A stretch of 64,000 nucleotides of DNA from Bacteriovorax sp. BSW11_IV (GTDB lineage Bacteria > Bdellovibrionota > Bacteriovoracia > Bacteriovoracales > Bacteriovoracaceae). This document shows, piece by piece, positions 20,357 through 27,001 of this stretch; position 1 is the first letter of the stretch, and every line of letters begins with the position of its first letter. Made by a program: the position numbers and the translations under genes. The notes below the pieces were generated by a model. The model was not told the DNA's origin, searched no databases, and saw only the letters and a program-made list of their open reading frames with translations. The DNA lies in the NCBI RefSeq assembly GCF_000447755.1, contig NZ_AUNE01000027.1, positions 62,001 through 126,000 on the forward strand, given 5' to 3'.

Positions 20357-21359
20357 GTAGGCCATGGGCCATATTAACTTTTAAAACTTCAACATTATTT
20401 ATATTCAATGACTGCATGTGACCAAGAACGAGAGCAATATTTGTCACATCAGTCTGAGAATATTCACCACCAAGTTCTTTGTCATTCATTTGTGATCTTT
20501 CCATCAAAGTCCTATATAGATCTTCTTGGTTGTAAATTTTATCGGCAATTTTAGTTTGGTTTCTAAGTGAGTAGTAATGAACTCCACCAATTCCATACAC
20601 TTTTGTGTCAGATAAGTTTCTAAAGGCCACAGGTACTTTTTTTGCGTATTCTTTAGAAAGTTGAAGAGCGCGTAGAGCTCGCTCTTTTCTCAGAGGGTTT
20701 GGTGTTTGCGCATTTTTGTTATAATACTTTTTTAAAACAGCATCTTTGAAACTGACGGAAGCAATTTTTCCTAAGTAGTAATTCCACTTACCATCAATAT
20801 TTTTAGTCATCTGTTGAGAACCACCACCGATGTCCCAAACCATAAAACTTTCGTTTTTATTTTTGATATGTCCTAGGGCCCCAAGGTAGCCAAAGCGAGC
20901 TTCAGTTTCTTGGTTGATAACTCTCATTTTGATCTTTGTCTTATCTGAAATTTCTTTAAGGGCCACAGCGCCGTTGCCCGCTGTTCTAAATGCAGATGTG
21001 GCCATGGCACTAAAGTCAGTGGCCCCCATGTCTTTGGCCATTTTTTTCAATTCACCTAAGGCATTTACGGCCTTTTTCTTAATGTCTGAGTTGAAGTTAT
21101 TGTCTTTTGCCTGGATCAACGCCTCTTTGAATGGCACTCCACGCTGGGCCTCGAGAAGGATGCTCACAAGTTTGTGTTCGCATTTATCGACTTCAGCGAC
21201 AACCATTTTTGTAGAGCCTGAGCCCACATCAAAGGCCGCTCTTTTTACGAGACAGGCTGAATTTGAAGTTTCGTTTTTTGTTGTAGATGCGCAGCCACTG
21301 ATAACAAGGGCCGCGCTAATGATAATAAAATTACGCGCGATAGACGAAGGCCTTTTCAC
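20334..21359 (-). CDS. Ppx/GppA-family phosphatase predicted as an exported lipoprotein
   Basis: A 341-residue protein. The N-terminus is a lipoprotein signal (AALVISGC, predicted modified Cys followed by AST). The rest is the ASKHA-fold Ppx/GppA family: phosphate-1 motif FDVGSGSTKMVVAEV, ATSAFRTAGNG, INQETEARFGYLGA and phosphate-2 motif VWDIGGGSQQM. Cytosolic relatives split polyphosphate or convert pppGpp to ppGpp; those substrates are not expected in the periplasm, so the substrate here is open. It lacks the C-terminal HD domain of long Ppx enzymes. The GTG at 21359 has AGGAG five bases upstream and lies inside the end of the DNA methyltransferase gene (29-base overlap), suggesting coupling. 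Confidence 0.82.
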   Translation of the reverse strand: MKRPSSIARNFIIISAALVISGCASTTKNETSNSACLVKRAAFDVGSGSTKMVVAEVDKCEHKLVSILLEAQRGVPFKEALIQAKDNNFNSDIKKKAVNALGELKKMAKDMGATDFSAMATSAFRTAGNGAVALKEISDKTKIKMRVINQETEARFGYLGALGHIKNKNESFMVWDIGGGSQQMTKNIDGKWNYYLGKIASVSFKDAVLKKYYNKNAQTPNPLRKERALRALQLSKEYAKKVPVAFRNLSDTKVYGIGGVHYYSLRNQTKIADKIYNQEDLYRTLMERSQMNDKELGGEYSQTDVTNIALVLGHMQSLNINNVEVLKVNMAHGLLIDEASW

Positions 21360-22479
21360 GTACACTCCTAATAGTTTGGTTTATTGTACTCTTCGTTTCG
21401 TTCTTATTGTCTTTATTCTGAAGAGAATCTTTGTACATTTTTACAATGGCCTTACCAATACATTTTGCCATAACTGGTGGCACAGCATTTCCAATTTGTC
21501 TCCACTGTGCAGATAGTGTTCCTTCAAATACGAAATCATTTGGAAAACTTTGCAAGCGTGCCGCCTCTCTTTGAGTTAAGTAGCGGTGCTCAACAGGGTG
21601 GAAGTAGCTATGTCTATGAGTCATAATTGTCGGGCTTGGTTTACTACGATCTAATCTTTGGTATTTTGTTTGACGGAAACGATTTTCTTTTAGATTTTTC
21701 CAATCAACACCTAGATAAAGTGATTTTGTTAGGAAAGCTTTTTCATCTTTCTCATAACGAATCCCTTGACCTTCAGGAATGCGCATAAGTCTTTTTTCAT
21801 CAATTTTTGATTTAACTTTAGCACTTGCAAGGTCATGGTTATGGATCATTCCGTCTTTTGCTTGCAGGTCAAGTAGAGCTTCACCTACAGTTACTGGCGC
21901 TTTATAAGTTTTGGCCATAATTGTATCGTGAGTAACTTTTGGAAATTCAATTTGAGAATTGATTCTTGAACCAATGATAATAGTTCTTCTTCTACGCTCA
22001 GGAACACCATAGCGCTCTGAAGACATGACTTGTACATCTAAGATATATCCAAGCTTGTAGAATTCTTTGAAAATGCTCTTTAATGTATTCTCATTTTTCT
22101 TTGCAAGAAGTCCTGTTACGTTTTCAATGACGACGTAGTAAGGATTTGTTTCTTTCACTATACGAACGAATTCGCGAAATAGTGAGTTTCTTGCATCTTT
22201 TGGATCACCTAATCCAACGGTTGAAAAACCTTGGCATGGAGGACCACCGACAACAACGTGAACTTCTTGATTATCAAGGTGCTCTTTTAAAGTTGATTTT
22301 GTAAGCTTTCTTACGTCGCCACAGTAGAATTTAGCGTGCTTGTGATTGCGAAGGAATGTTTGACCTGCAAATTTGTCAGCATCAACACCTAAAATACAAT
22401 TAAGTCCCGCCATTTCTAGGCCACATGAAAGGCCACCAGCTCCTGAAAATACATCGATAAAGTTCAATTTTTTGACCAT
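21331..22479 (-). CDS. C5-cytosine DNA methyltransferase
   Basis: A 382-residue enzyme that methylates cytosine at C5 in a short DNA target. The ordered motifs are all present: I (DVFSGAGGLSCGLEMAG), IV (GGPPCQGFS with catalytic Cys), VI (IENVTGL), VIII (ERRRRTIIIGS), IX (REAARLQSFP) and X (QIGNAVPP). The target-recognition region lies between about residues 190 and 290. No restriction endonuclease gene is adjacent, so it is either solitary or paired elsewhere. The ATG at 22479 is preferred over an upstream TTG. A strong promoter lies just upstream. The last 30 residues are Lys/Asn-rich, and the gene end overlaps the start of the Ppx-like lipoprotein gene. Confidence 0.92.
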   Translation of the reverse strand: MVKKLNFIDVFSGAGGLSCGLEMAGLNCILGVDADKFAGQTFLRNHKHAKFYCGDVRKLTKSTLKEHLDNQEVHVVVGGPPCQGFSTVGLGDPKDARNSLFREFVRIVKETNPYYVVIENVTGLLAKKNENTLKSIFKEFYKLGYILDVQVMSSERYGVPERRRRTIIIGSRINSQIEFPKVTHDTIMAKTYKAPVTVGEALLDLQAKDGMIHNHDLASAKVKSKIDEKRLMRIPEGQGIRYEKDEKAFLTKSLYLGVDWKNLKENRFRQTKYQRLDRSKPSPTIMTHRHSYFHPVEHRYLTQREAARLQSFPNDFVFEGTLSAQWRQIGNAVPPVMAKCIGKAIVKMYKDSLQNKDNKNETKSTINQTIRSVREKAFVYRA

Positions 22480-22528
22480 TGTGTAATCTGTCTCTTGTTG
22501 TTGGTTTAAAAGAAAAAAGTACAATGAT

Positions 22529-22562: not shown

Positions 22563-23315
22563 TTAGCCGATCTTTTTTAGCTCGTTTTGGAGCTCGATGT
22601 TATTGAACACTAAGACTTCGTCTTTCTTGCGCTCCACAGGGAGTTTTTCCACTTTTTTTGTGGTTTCCATGCATTGGAACGTACCGTCATTTTTGCGAAT
22701 GATGATTTTGTCTGATAGCTCGGTCCATAGATCTAAATTTTTGGACAAAATAAGAAAACTTGTATTTTCTTTTTCGTTTTTTAGAAGAATCGCTTTTTTT
22801 AATAATTTTAATTGAAAGTGACTCAAGTGCTCATCAATACCATCGAGAATGATCATCGGACAATTGCGTAAAAAGGATTTTACAATACTTGCTAGAATAA
22901 GTTCTTCTTTATTGGCCTCGCTTGGAAGGTCATTCAAATTTTTAATTTGGAAGAAAAGGGATTTGAGTGCTGGTCTCATATGTAATCTTTCTTGAATGAT
23001 TTGTTCTTGATCATAGCAAAGTGTCTGAGTATCAGACTCGAGCATTATGTTTTGAAGAAGGGAAAGGTTTTTTACAAAATTCTGTCCTTCATCAACATGA
23101 GCAAATTGATAGTAGGCCTTCATGCCTAAATACCTAAGGGCCACAAGGCCATTTTTAAGTCCTGATTGATAGGCCTTTTGCTTTGGAGACATGAATATGA
23201 TGTCACCAGCGACGATCTTTTTTGCTTGATTTTTCATGCCTTCTTTATCGGGAAATAAAGTGTAAAACTTAATAATTGTTGCACATTTTAGTCTTTTTTC
23301 GGAAATATCCTCCAA
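22563..23315 (-). CDS. ABC-ATPase-like protein without ATPase motifs
   Basis: A 250-residue cytosolic protein whose layout follows an ABC ATPase domain but with every catalytic motif lost. Where Walker A should be it reads GDIIFMSPKQKAYQSG. The signature region is DLPSEANKEELILASIVKSF. Walker B is PMIILDGIDEHLS with Gly instead of Glu, and the H-loop region reads FLILSKNLDL. The match to the ABC fold is inferred from the order and spacing of hydrophobic strands, notably CPMIILDGIDEHL and SDKIIIRKNDG. The start is a TTG at 23315 with AGGGAG six bases upstream; the first internal ATG (23237) has its GAAGG too close. It is divergent from the MnmA-like gene. Confidence 0.6.
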   Translation of the reverse strand: MEDISEKRLKCATIIKFYTLFPDKEGMKNQAKKIVAGDIIFMSPKQKAYQSGLKNGLVALRYLGMKAYYQFAHVDEGQNFVKNLSLLQNIMLESDTQTLCYDQEQIIQERLHMRPALKSLFFQIKNLNDLPSEANKEELILASIVKSFLRNCPMIILDGIDEHLSHFQLKLLKKAILLKNEKENTSFLILSKNLDLWTELSDKIIIRKNDGTFQCMETTKKVEKLPVERKKDEVLVFNNIELQNELKKIG

Positions 23316-23376
23316 CTTTATCTCCCTGCAATTATTGGACTATAATGAAAGAGTCCATTATTTGAGGAGGCGGTGA

Positions 23377-24585
23377 TTGAGTACAATCATTATTGGCATG
23401 GATGGCAAAATTGAATCTTTGGTAGCGGCCTATTTGTTAAAAAAGCAAGGGCATCGCTGTATAGGTGTCAGTGTTGCTTGTTCAACTGGAAATGCAACTG
23501 TTGATAAAATTATGGCCCCTTGGATGCCTGAGAATTTAGAAAATATAAAATCCTACTGTGACCAATTGGAGATTCCTTATTACGCAACTGATGGTAGTGG
23601 AGAATTTTATGATCAGATCATTGATCGTATTGTCGCTGCCAAATTGCAAGGTATACGCTATAACCCTCTTCAAGATTTTAATAAACTCATTATCAGTAAA
23701 CTCATCGAAAAGAAGAAAGTTTTAGGCGCCGATTTTGTGGCCACAGGTCACTTTGCAAAAATCTATAAAAATCAAATCACCCATGAGTTTCATCTTCTGA
23801 CTTCAAATGATGAAGAAAATGACGAAAGTTATGGTGTCGCATCAATCGATAGTTCTTTTTATGAGCACCTGATGTTCCCTTTGGCCGACATTCGACGTTT
23901 TGAATGTGAAAAGATCTATGCACTCATGGGTATCAAAGTCAAAAGAGATTACAAGCAATTAAAAGAAGAGCGTCATGATTTCGATCTTCAAAAAGAAGTT
24001 AATCTTCTTACCAAGGAGTTGTCTTCACCTCATTTTGTAAAAGAAGGAACCGTTTTTAGCTATTATGATTCGCGCTCTCTTGGTGAACATGAGAGTACAC
24101 TCGATTTTTATCTTGGATTAGATAAATTTAACTTTAAGGCCAGTGCTCCAGTTGAAAAGGGCTTGATTGTTGGTAAAATTGTTCCAAGTACGGGGTTAAT
24201 TTTCTTAGTTAAAGAAGAATCGATGAAGTGTTCGCATATTTATGTTGAGGAATTTGTCTGTGAAGATAAATTAGATGTTTCTATGCCGATGAATTGCTTT
24301 TTTAAGATGTCGGCCAATTCTGAAAAAATTGCGTGTACATTGTACATGAAAAATAATGGTGCCGCTTTGATTGAGCTTAAAGAAGAAATTAACGAACTCA
24401 TTCCTCAGGGTCTCGCCTTGGCCTTTTACTCACGTAAAGGTGTTGGGGCAAAGGTTCTTGGCCGTGCACGGATACGTAGTTTTGGTTATTATGAAAACTC
24501 AGAGTATCGCTATCTTCCTCTTACTAAGGACGAGGAGGATGTTGTTAAAAAACCTCTGGTAGATATTTTTCAATTGAGGCACTAA
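23377..24585 (+). CDS. MnmA-like protein lacking catalytic residues
   Basis: A 402-residue relative of the tRNA 2-thiouridylase MnmA, whose intact gene lies 1.2 kb downstream. Shared features: an N-terminal adenylation-type fold (TIIIGMDGKIESLVAAYLLKKQG), GADFVATGHFAKI and a C-terminal beta-barrel domain. Missing features: the PP-loop SGGVDSS reads DGKIESL, the first catalytic Cys region (NPDILCNREIKF in MnmA) reads NPLQDFNKLIISKL, and the STGICFIGER segment with the second Cys is gone. It therefore cannot perform the usual thiolation and may be a binding or regulatory paralogue. The start is a TTG at 23377 with a perfect AGGAGG six bases upstream. Its stop overlaps the next start (TAATG). 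Confidence 0.75.
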   Translation: MSTIIIGMDGKIESLVAAYLLKKQGHRCIGVSVACSTGNATVDKIMAPWMPENLENIKSYCDQLEIPYYATDGSGEFYDQIIDRIVAAKLQGIRYNPLQDFNKLIISKLIEKKKVLGADFVATGHFAKIYKNQITHEFHLLTSNDEENDESYGVASIDSSFYEHLMFPLADIRRFECEKIYALMGIKVKRDYKQLKEERHDFDLQKEVNLLTKELSSPHFVKEGTVFSYYDSRSLGEHESTLDFYLGLDKFNFKASAPVEKGLIVGKIVPSTGLIFLVKEESMKCSHIYVEEFVCEDKLDVSMPMNCFFKMSANSEKIACTLYMKNNGAALIELKEEINELIPQGLALAFYSRKGVGAKVLGRARIRSFGYYENSEYRYLPLTKDEEDVVKKPLVDIFQLRH

Positions 24586-25724
24586 TGCGTTTTTTAATCA
24601 TTTTCTTTGTTTTATTTAATTTTCAATCTTTTGCCCTTACTCTGAAGGCGCAAGATTCAACGATTAGGAATAAAACGCAACTTTCTCGAATAGTGAAAAA
24701 TGTAAAAGAAGATGATCTTATATCTACTCTAAGAGATTTTGTGAGATGTTGTCGTCCCTCACGTATGGCGGGCACTAGTGGTCATGAAATGGTTTCAAAG
24801 TGGCTGGTTGACGAGATTAAAAAGCGTGATAATACAAACTCAGGTCTTACTTTTGTTGATGATTTTATCCCTAATACAGAAGAGGCCATTAAAAAGTTTC
24901 AAGACAACTTCCAAAAAGAGATTGTCGGACGTTATGAAGAAAAAGATCCCGTTTATAAAAAATGGAACGATTATACAAAATCAATGATTCAAAAAATTGA
25001 ATCACTCAAAACTGTAACAGGAAAAAATGTAATTTGGGAAAAGAAGGGTGCTAAGTTTCCAAATGAAGTTATCATGTTGGGGGCCCATTATGATACGATT
25101 GCCTTTAATAAGGAGACTCTGGTTATTGATGAAAGTGCCGCACAGCCTGGTGCCGATAATAATGGAACGGGTGTTGTTGCTCTTTTAGAAATGATTAATC
25201 TCTTTTCAAAAATTCAACTAGAAAAAACTATTCGAATTGTATTCTTTGATATGCAGGAATTAGGTGAGCTTGGTTCTAGGGCCTATGTCTCCAAGTATCT
25301 TGAGTCTCTTAAAAAAGAAAACTTTGTTGGTTTTATGAATGTGATGATGTTGGGCTTTGATACAAAGACCAGCGATAAGATTAAAAAAATTGGAAATTTT
25401 AAGGCCTATATTCGCGAAGGTCATGGTGAATTTCCTGATTCTGATAAATCTCTCTTCGATATGATAAATCGTGCTGGCTCACGAGTGAATTCATCATTTA
25501 AGTTTACACCGCTAGGCAAGGCCTTCTCTCCTGGAGATCATTTACCTTTTTGGGAAGCTGGACTACCTGCTGTCACTTTCACCCAAGATTTTGAAAATGA
25601 TTACAACGAAAAGAGAAATCATACTTCAAATGATTTTGTTGAGACTCTAAATTTCAAAACTTATCACAAGGCCTTTCTCTATTTGGCCGCAGGGGTTTTG
25701 GCCCAAAATTTTGAAATTAAGTAG
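24585..25724 (+). CDS. Exported M28-family peptidase-like protein (catalytic Glu replaced)
   Basis: A 379-residue protein with a signal peptide (FVLFNFQSFA). The M28 zinc-peptidase core is clear: MLGAHYDTI (His ligand), GADNNGTGV (bridging Asp), VFFDMQELGELGS, MLGFDTK (Asp) and SPGDHLPFW (His). In active M28 enzymes the central motif has two glutamates, the first acting as general base and the second as zinc ligand; here the first is Gln. All metal ligands remain, so it may bind zinc but cleave poorly or not at all. The start ATG overlaps the stop of the MnmA-like gene by one base, indicating translational coupling. An additional N-terminal helical region (about residues 25-150) has no assigned domain. 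Confidence 0.8.
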   Translation: MRFLIIFFVLFNFQSFALTLKAQDSTIRNKTQLSRIVKNVKEDDLISTLRDFVRCCRPSRMAGTSGHEMVSKWLVDEIKKRDNTNSGLTFVDDFIPNTEEAIKKFQDNFQKEIVGRYEEKDPVYKKWNDYTKSMIQKIESLKTVTGKNVIWEKKGAKFPNEVIMLGAHYDTIAFNKETLVIDESAAQPGADNNGTGVVALLEMINLFSKIQLEKTIRIVFFDMQELGELGSRAYVSKYLESLKKENFVGFMNVMMLGFDTKTSDKIKKIGNFKAYIREGHGEFPDSDKSLFDMINRAGSRVNSSFKFTPLGKAFSPGDHLPFWEAGLPAVTFTQDFENDYNEKRNHTSNDFVETLNFKTYHKAFLYLAAGVLAQNFEIK

Positions 25725-25787: not shown

Positions 25788-26930
25788 ATGGCAAGAATAA
25801 ACGATCCTAGAAAAAATGAAGAAATCACTGTTATCCTCGGTATGTCTGGAGGAGTGGATTCATCTGTATGTGCGGCCCTATTAAAAGAAGAAGGCTATAA
25901 CGTTATTGGTATGTTTATGAAAAACTGGGAAGAACTCGATGAAAATGGAGTTTGTCAGTCTGCCAAAGAATTCCAAGATGTCGTAAAAGTTTGTGAGAAG
26001 CTAGATATCCCTTATTACTCTGTCGACTTTGTGAAAGAATATCGCGAACAAGTCTTCAAGCATTTTGTTTCTGAATATGAAGCAGGTCACACTCCTAACC
26101 CAGATATTCTTTGTAATCGTGAGATTAAATTCAAAGTTTTCTTAGAAAAGGCCCTTGAATTGGGGGCCGATTATTTGGCCACTGGGCACTATTGCCAAAA
26201 TGAGTTCATTGGTGGCGAAAATCGTCTTGTAAAAGGTAATGATCCAGGCAAAGATCAAACTTACTTTTTGTATACGCAAAAAAAATCTATCTTAGATAAG
26301 GTTCTTTTTCCTATTGGGCACCTACCTAAAAAAGAAGTTCGTGAGATTGCAAAAAAATATGATTTGATTACTCACGATAAAAAAGATTCGACAGGAATTT
26401 GTTTTATTGGAGAGAGAAATTTCAAAAACTTTCTTTCAAATTATGTTCAATTAAAACCTGGTCGCTTCCAGACATTAGATGGCACAGATGTCGGAGAACA
26501 TTCAGGTGCTGCTTATTATACAATCGGTCAACGAAAAGGGCTCGGCCTTGGTGGCCAAGGTGAGCCATGGTTTGTTGTTGGAAAAAATATTGATCATAAT
26601 ATTGTATTCGTTGAGCGTGGAGAAGAGCATCCGGCGCTCTATGCTGATGAGCTATGGGCCAACGAACTTAGTTTTGTGAGTGAAGAATTTAATTTAGAAC
26701 TCCCATTTAAATGTCGTGCAAAGATTCGTTACCGCCAAGAAGATCAAGGTTGTACTATTGTTGGATTTGATGGTGAGCGCGTACATGTTATTTTTGATGA
26801 GGCCCAAAAGGCGATTACTATTCGTCAAAGTATTGTATTTTATTCAACCATCGAAGGACGTGAAGTATGTCTTGGCGGCGGAATGATTGAAAAAAGAGGT
26901 CCAACTCACTTCGAGAAGGCCAATCAATAA
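25788..26930 (+). CDS. mnmA: tRNA-specific 2-thiouridylase MnmA
   Basis: A 380-residue enzyme that adenylates and thiolates U34 of tRNA for Lys, Glu and Gln. It is complete: PP-loop GMSGGVDSSV (about residues 18-27), GMFMKNW, first catalytic Cys109 in NPDILCNREIKF, ATGHYCQ, KDQTYFLY, second Cys205 in STGICFIGER, GQRKGLGLGG and a C-terminal barrel ending GREVCLGGGMI. The start ATG at 25788 lacks a strong ribosome binding site. A rho-independent terminator follows at 26976. It lies downstream of its degenerate paralogue and the M28-like gene. Confidence 0.96.
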   Translation: MARINDPRKNEEITVILGMSGGVDSSVCAALLKEEGYNVIGMFMKNWEELDENGVCQSAKEFQDVVKVCEKLDIPYYSVDFVKEYREQVFKHFVSEYEAGHTPNPDILCNREIKFKVFLEKALELGADYLATGHYCQNEFIGGENRLVKGNDPGKDQTYFLYTQKKSILDKVLFPIGHLPKKEVREIAKKYDLITHDKKDSTGICFIGERNFKNFLSNYVQLKPGRFQTLDGTDVGEHSGAAYYTIGQRKGLGLGGQGEPWFVVGKNIDHNIVFVERGEEHPALYADELWANELSFVSEEFNLELPFKCRAKIRYRQEDQGCTIVGFDGERVHVIFDEAQKAITIRQSIVFYSTIEGREVCLGGGMIEKRGPTHFEKANQ

Positions 26931-26975: not shown

Positions 26976-27001
26976 AAAGTCCTTAGGGACGGACTTTTTT
27001 G
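26976..27001 (+). terminator. Rho-independent terminator after mnmA
   Basis: A seven-base stem AAAGTCC / GGACTTT (26976-26982 and 26991-26997) with an eight-base loop is followed by a T run. Confidence 0.7.

Follow-up and report, generated by a model that had tools for sequence, protein, structure and literature searches.

Organization of the locus

The window, the whole stretch of 64,000 nucleotides from Bacteriovorax sp. BSW11_IV that was analysed and to which all positions refer, carries at 23377–24585 (+) an open reading frame of 402 amino acids with a TTG start that encodes a MnmA-like protein, referred to here as the paralogue. The start codon is preceded by a Shine–Dalgarno sequence, GAGGAGG, at 23364–23370 (+), within which the perfect AGGAGG described in the first-pass annotation of this DNA occupies positions 23365–23370, at a spacing of 6 nt. 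The ATG of an M28-family peptidase gene (24585–25724, +) overlaps the stop codon of the paralogue by one base, and this gene lies between the paralogue and the resident, intact D-type mnmA (25788–26930, +), which displays the motifs SGGVDSS, DILC, and GICFIG and starts 1.2 kb past the end of the paralogue, the distance at which an intact mnmA had been annotated. A stem followed by a run of T residues at 26976–26997, just past mnmA, is terminator-like and consistent with the end of an operon comprising the paralogue, the M28 gene, and mnmA.

Divergent from the paralogue, a gene at 22563–23237 (−) encodes a pseudo-ABC-ATPase without a Walker A motif, hereafter the companion. A C5 DNA cytosine methylase, putatively an orphan, is encoded at 21331–22524 (−) and is found at the locus in about 20 genera. 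A reading of the locus as a defence system was rejected, since PADLOC gave no match for either the paralogue or the companion and the methylase is a C5 DNA methylase of the ordinary kind.

Domain composition and predicted structure of the paralogue

A Pfam search identified the tRNA_Me_trans HUP domain in the paralogue with an E value of 1.5e-29 and, narrowly, the C-terminal barrel domain with 22.0 bits at a cut-off of 20.6; the middle PRC-barrel domain was not detected in this search. Against the NCBIfam MnmA equivalog NF001138 the paralogue scores 130.7 bits, far below the cut-off of 284, and against TIGR00420 it scores 108.1 bits at a cut-off of 237; the corresponding values for the resident MnmA, with which it shares 25% sequence identity, are 441.7 and 409.2 bits. 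Judged by its sequence, the paralogue is a homologue of MnmA, yet it falls below the score needed to call it MnmA.

The AlphaFold model of the paralogue has a pLDDT of 93.2 and a pTM of 0.89 and displays the three-domain fold of MnmA. Its best five Foldseek matches are all MnmA structures (including 2hma, 2der, 2deu, and 2det), with TM scores of 0.79–0.86 by target length. The claim that the protein retains the length and the C-terminal domain of MnmA is upheld, and the likeness covers the whole predicted fold. With the MnmA/TrmU tRNA-specific 2-thiouridylases (PF03054, NF001138; 2der, 2hma, 9hln) the paralogue shares the fold, the domain order, and the TGH and D-Q motifs, in addition to the proximity of its gene to mnmA. 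It differs from them in its degraded PP-loop, in its cysteines, which are lost in the window and arranged as C...CxxC...C in other paralogues, in the absence of the KDQ lysine and of QRxG from essentially all paralogues, and in an extra C-terminal tail that ends in Phe or Leu.

Loss and retention of catalytic residues

In the paralogue of the window, the PP-loop reads DGKIESL (residues 9–15; 23401–23421, +) where the canonical sequence is SGGVDSS. This substitution had been recognized in the first-pass annotation, but the motif, listed there as lost, is only degraded, because Gly10 and Ser14 remain; the first position is occupied by Asp. Across 90 paralogues, the last Ser is present in all and the Gly in 84, the first Ser is replaced by Thr, Asp, or Asn in most, and only five retain an intact SGGxDS. 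The two catalytic cysteines of MnmA, located in the D/CxxC and GICF motifs, are both missing from the window paralogue, as had been annotated. At the D/CxxC site, LQDF (residues 98–101; 23668–23679, +) has both Cys positions substituted, with F101 at the position of the DxxC cysteine; the second Cys segment, KDSTGICFIG, is missing, and Cys is absent from the corresponding site at about residues 201–202 (23977–23982, +). In MnmA from E. coli, the D99A, C102A/S, and C199A variants are inactive (PMC11784392), so no thiolation would be expected of a protein that lacks them and acts by itself.

We compared 30 paralogues with the positions at which 93% or more of the aligned MnmA sequences agree, using the numbering of the mnmA product of the window. 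Kept in the paralogues are Gly21, Ser25, the TGH motif (residues 123–125 of the window paralogue; 23743–23751, +), Asp152, Asp156, Gln157, and Pro175. Rarely kept are the KDQ lysine (3%), TP (7–10%), and Arg314 (3%), and neither the Arg of QRxG nor the Gly following it is kept at all (0% each). These losses are common to Cys-bearing and Cys-less paralogues. Since residues that are near-invariant in MnmA have been lost clade-wide, the whole clade departs from canonical MnmA, and no member is a canonical 2-thiouridylase.

For the four cysteines that correspond to C...(D/C)xxC...C, the pattern is almost all-or-none: of 92 sequences, 45 have the complete set, 40 have none, and 7 are mixed, independently of the state of the PP-loop; the lineage of the window lacks all four. 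Orthologues with the same losses, the search for which had been proposed as a check, thus exist as far as the MnmA-invariant residues are concerned, but about half of the family keeps C...CxxC...C and the PP-loop is degraded to a variable extent. On the best tree topology, no fewer than five changes are needed to explain the presence or absence of the cysteines, although supported branches force only two to three; an independent-pairs test of their joint loss gave no significance, with too few supported pairs. The pattern would fit a metal or redox module that is retained or dropped as a unit, and the layout of the Cys-bearing half resembles the C/CC-CxxC-C arrangement of C-type MnmA (PMC11784392), the CC-CxxC-C class of Shigi.

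With about half of the orthologues keeping four cysteines and five keeping SGGxDS, some of them may be active on another substrate. The paralogue would then be a re-purposed sulfur- or adenylyl-transferase, in which the four-Cys members act in an Fe–S-dependent manner on a different position of tRNA, a different RNA, or a small molecule, and the Cys-less members have kept only adenylation or binding. Both the conservation of the four cysteines as a unit, matching the C-type layout, and the near-invariance of the PP-loop Gly and Ser speak for this explanation, which we nevertheless consider unlikely: the first Ser of the PP-loop has mostly been replaced, the MnmA-invariant residues have been lost from Cys-bearing members as well, and the lineage of the window combines the absence of catalytic cysteines with an Asp at position one of the PP-loop.

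The divergent companion and the C-terminal tails

No significant Pfam match was obtained for the companion, but a profile of its family matches ABC ATPases at 2e-7, and its predicted structure (pLDDT 85.5) matches ABC nucleotide-binding domains. Nowhere in the family alignment is a Walker A motif found. Family members occur in L031–L061, L087–L117, and L167–L226, and in most genera. Where a stretch leaves space for the companion, it adjoins the paralogue in 69 of 86 cases (35 of 37 for Cys-less paralogues) and is absent in 12 cases with a four-Cys paralogue; the intergenic region between the two divergent genes measures about 75–155 bp.

Of 67 companion sequences, 64 terminate in Ala or Ser, as in KKAA, KKAS, and KNVA; that of the window ends in KKIG. 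The paralogue of the window ends in the tail DIFQLRH (24562–24582, +), in which residues 398–402 are disordered in the AlphaFold model (pLDDT below 50), and those of its relatives commonly end in hydrophobic-x-Phe behind a variable, often acidic linker. Among 91 paralogues, 71 terminate in Phe and 10 in Leu, compared with 3.7% Phe and 10% Leu in other frames at the same loci. The hydrophobic C-terminus of the paralogue probably serves in docking or as a signal for turnover, and the ends of both proteins resemble docking motifs or signals for proteases; the KKAA-type end of the companion is reminiscent of ClpX C-terminal signals.

The conserved divergent placement raises the question of whether the paralogue may serve this ABC-like neighbour instead of MnmA. 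The two proteins would then constitute a disarmed two-protein module, either a scaffold or a regulatory switch, which might be controlled by proteolysis through both tails. Such an arrangement would account for their frequent adjacency, which includes nearly all Cys-less members, for the divergent intergenic region, and for the conserved ends of both proteins. However, the 12 four-Cys stretches without the companion indicate that the paralogue can do without it, and the tails could have unrelated purposes, so that we hold this explanation to be decidedly unlikely.

Conservation, linkage, and selection

Full-length orthologues of the paralogue were found in 43 of the 48 Bacteriovoracaceae genera searched, amounting to 92 near-full-length frames; the relatives bearing names in this sample are mostly Halobacteriovorax and Bacteriovorax. 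The gene is absent from genus g32 (four genomes) and from single genomes of g66 and g28. Neither g11, where a contig edge falls at the locus, nor g13, with an incomplete genome, counts as a clear absence. In G023 (L060) and G026 (L048), the frame is interrupted or shortened by TAA, which reflects either an assembly error or a recent loss. Outside the family, no orthologue was found in the genomes searched, matches in the rest of the phylum being MnmA itself apart from second copies in two genomes. These divergent second MnmA-like proteins, encoded at L072:3079–4197 and L085:2372–3634, are separate from the paralogue clade in the tree.

In all 85 stretches with both genes, the paralogue precedes mnmA on the same strand, and in 15 of these the two frames are at most 150 nt apart or overlap, which is too tight for the M28 gene. 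Pairwise dN/dS values (NG86; dS is saturated in several pairs) are low: among close Cys-less orthologues they are 0.049 for L187/L191, 0.083 for L183/L177, and 0.040 for L188/L189, and other close pairs fall between 0.031 and 0.077. For the window paralogue and that of its congener, the value is 0.133 at a dS of 2.7, which is near saturation. The purifying selection that had been proposed as a check is thus apparent, and values this low exclude neutral decay. The window paralogue has neither a broken frame nor a dN/dS near one, and the earlier suggestion of a gene retained for a new role, as opposed to one in decay, stands. Neither of the two findings that had been named as refuting it, a lack of orthologues in relatives and a dN/dS near one, was obtained. 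A decaying pseudogene of mnmA, to which the lost catalytic residues, the faster change than in mnmA (59% versus 77% identity to the congener), and the broken frames in G023 and G026 might point, is extremely improbable and was ruled out by dN/dS far below one and retention throughout the family, with fold, motifs, tail, and promoter all conserved.

Origin of the paralogue

In quick trees with long branches, the paralogues cluster together, separately from other MnmA sequences, with 99–100% SH-aLRT support. The resident MnmA of the Bacteriovoracaceae is of the D-type (DxxC) and groups with other D-type sequences, whereas most of the phylum has the C-type, which suggests that the original gene was replaced in the family or that the pair is ancient. 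A grouping of the paralogues with the resident D-type MnmA was rejected by the AU test (p = 0.002). The paralogue is therefore not simply a copy of the resident mnmA; it either predates that gene or is foreign to it. Groupings with all D-type sequences (p = 0.56) and with the C-type sequences of the phylum (p = 0.53) were both compatible with the data. One possibility is that the paralogue is a displaced C-type enzyme. The four-Cys layout of half of its members resembles that type; the clade stands apart from C-type MnmA in trees, and the family's own mnmA is of the D-type.

Proposed function

The paralogue is very probably a conserved, selected, non-thiolating protein with the MnmA fold. Our best reading is that of an MnmA-derived pseudoenzyme, specific to the predatory Bacteriovoracaceae and kept by selection across the family. 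The strict linkage to mnmA and the precedent of Ctu1/Ctu2 suggest that the protein works on tRNA or on MnmA, and we see the arguments for and against its acting as a partner or regulator of MnmA/tRNA as evenly balanced. As such, it would be made together with MnmA and serve as its non-catalytic partner; it could bind tRNA or a nucleotide through the retained TGH/D-Q/Gly-Ser framework, and it may steer, stabilise, or limit MnmA, as Ctu2/Ncs2 does with Ctu1/Ncs6. The ancestral paralogue would have possessed a four-Cys site of the Fe–S type, which was dropped as a unit in the lineage of the window. Against a partnership with MnmA, the synteny may merely reflect vertical inheritance, as the C5 methylase and other genes are also conserved at the locus, and genus g32, like a few others, does without the paralogue.

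That a disarmed paralogue can turn into a partner is already known from eukaryotic tRNA thiolation, where Ctu2 is without the cluster cysteines and yet thiolation in vivo depends on Ctu2 as well as on Ctu1 (PMC10067955). Like the paralogue, Ctu2/Ncs2, the non-catalytic subunit of the eukaryotic U34 thiolase, is a paralogue of a PP-loop thiolase that has lost its cysteines, and in both cases catalytic residues are missing while an intact thiolase coexists. The descent of the two is different, however: Ctu2 belongs to the Ncs6/TtuA subclass, and the paralogue lies outside it, since its profile matches MnmA at 1e-90 to 1e-102 and TtuA-type thiolases at about 1e-7. Moreover, a complex is supported for Ctu2, whereas it is one that we infer for the paralogue.

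Taken further, MnmA and a non-catalytic, MnmA-derived subunit might make up a two-subunit bacterial U34 thiolase, an independent counterpart of Ctu1/Ctu2 that would be linked to the Walker A-less ABC-ATPase divergent from the same intergenic region; we regard this proposal as speculative and rather doubtful. A family-wide, selected, and mnmA-linked case in predatory bacteria would allow ideas on how two-subunit tRNA thiolases evolved to be tested. The all-or-none pattern of the four cysteines also offers a natural test of what role an Fe–S site plays in MnmA-type proteins, which is disputed. No paper in the literature collection searched names MnmA together with a pseudoenzyme or together with Bacteriovorax.

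Upstream signals

In the window, TATAAT at 23341–23346 (+), 30 nt before the start, is a candidate −10 element of the paralogue and would give rise to a leader containing the Shine–Dalgarno sequence; no RNA element upstream of the paralogue was matched in Rfam. A hexamer resembling TATAAT, and in nearly all cases identical to it, ends 5–7 nt before the ATG in 31 of 78 orthologues. The same placement is seen in 6 of 86 mnmA genes, 2 of 46 companion genes, and 7.5% of background frames (scored over 4–8 nt). With the hexamer this near to the ATG, the paralogue mRNAs of these 31 relatives are predicted to be leaderless. TATAAT is found 6–7 nt ahead of the ATG of the paralogue in L172, L176, L183, L184, L191, L192, and L219–L223.
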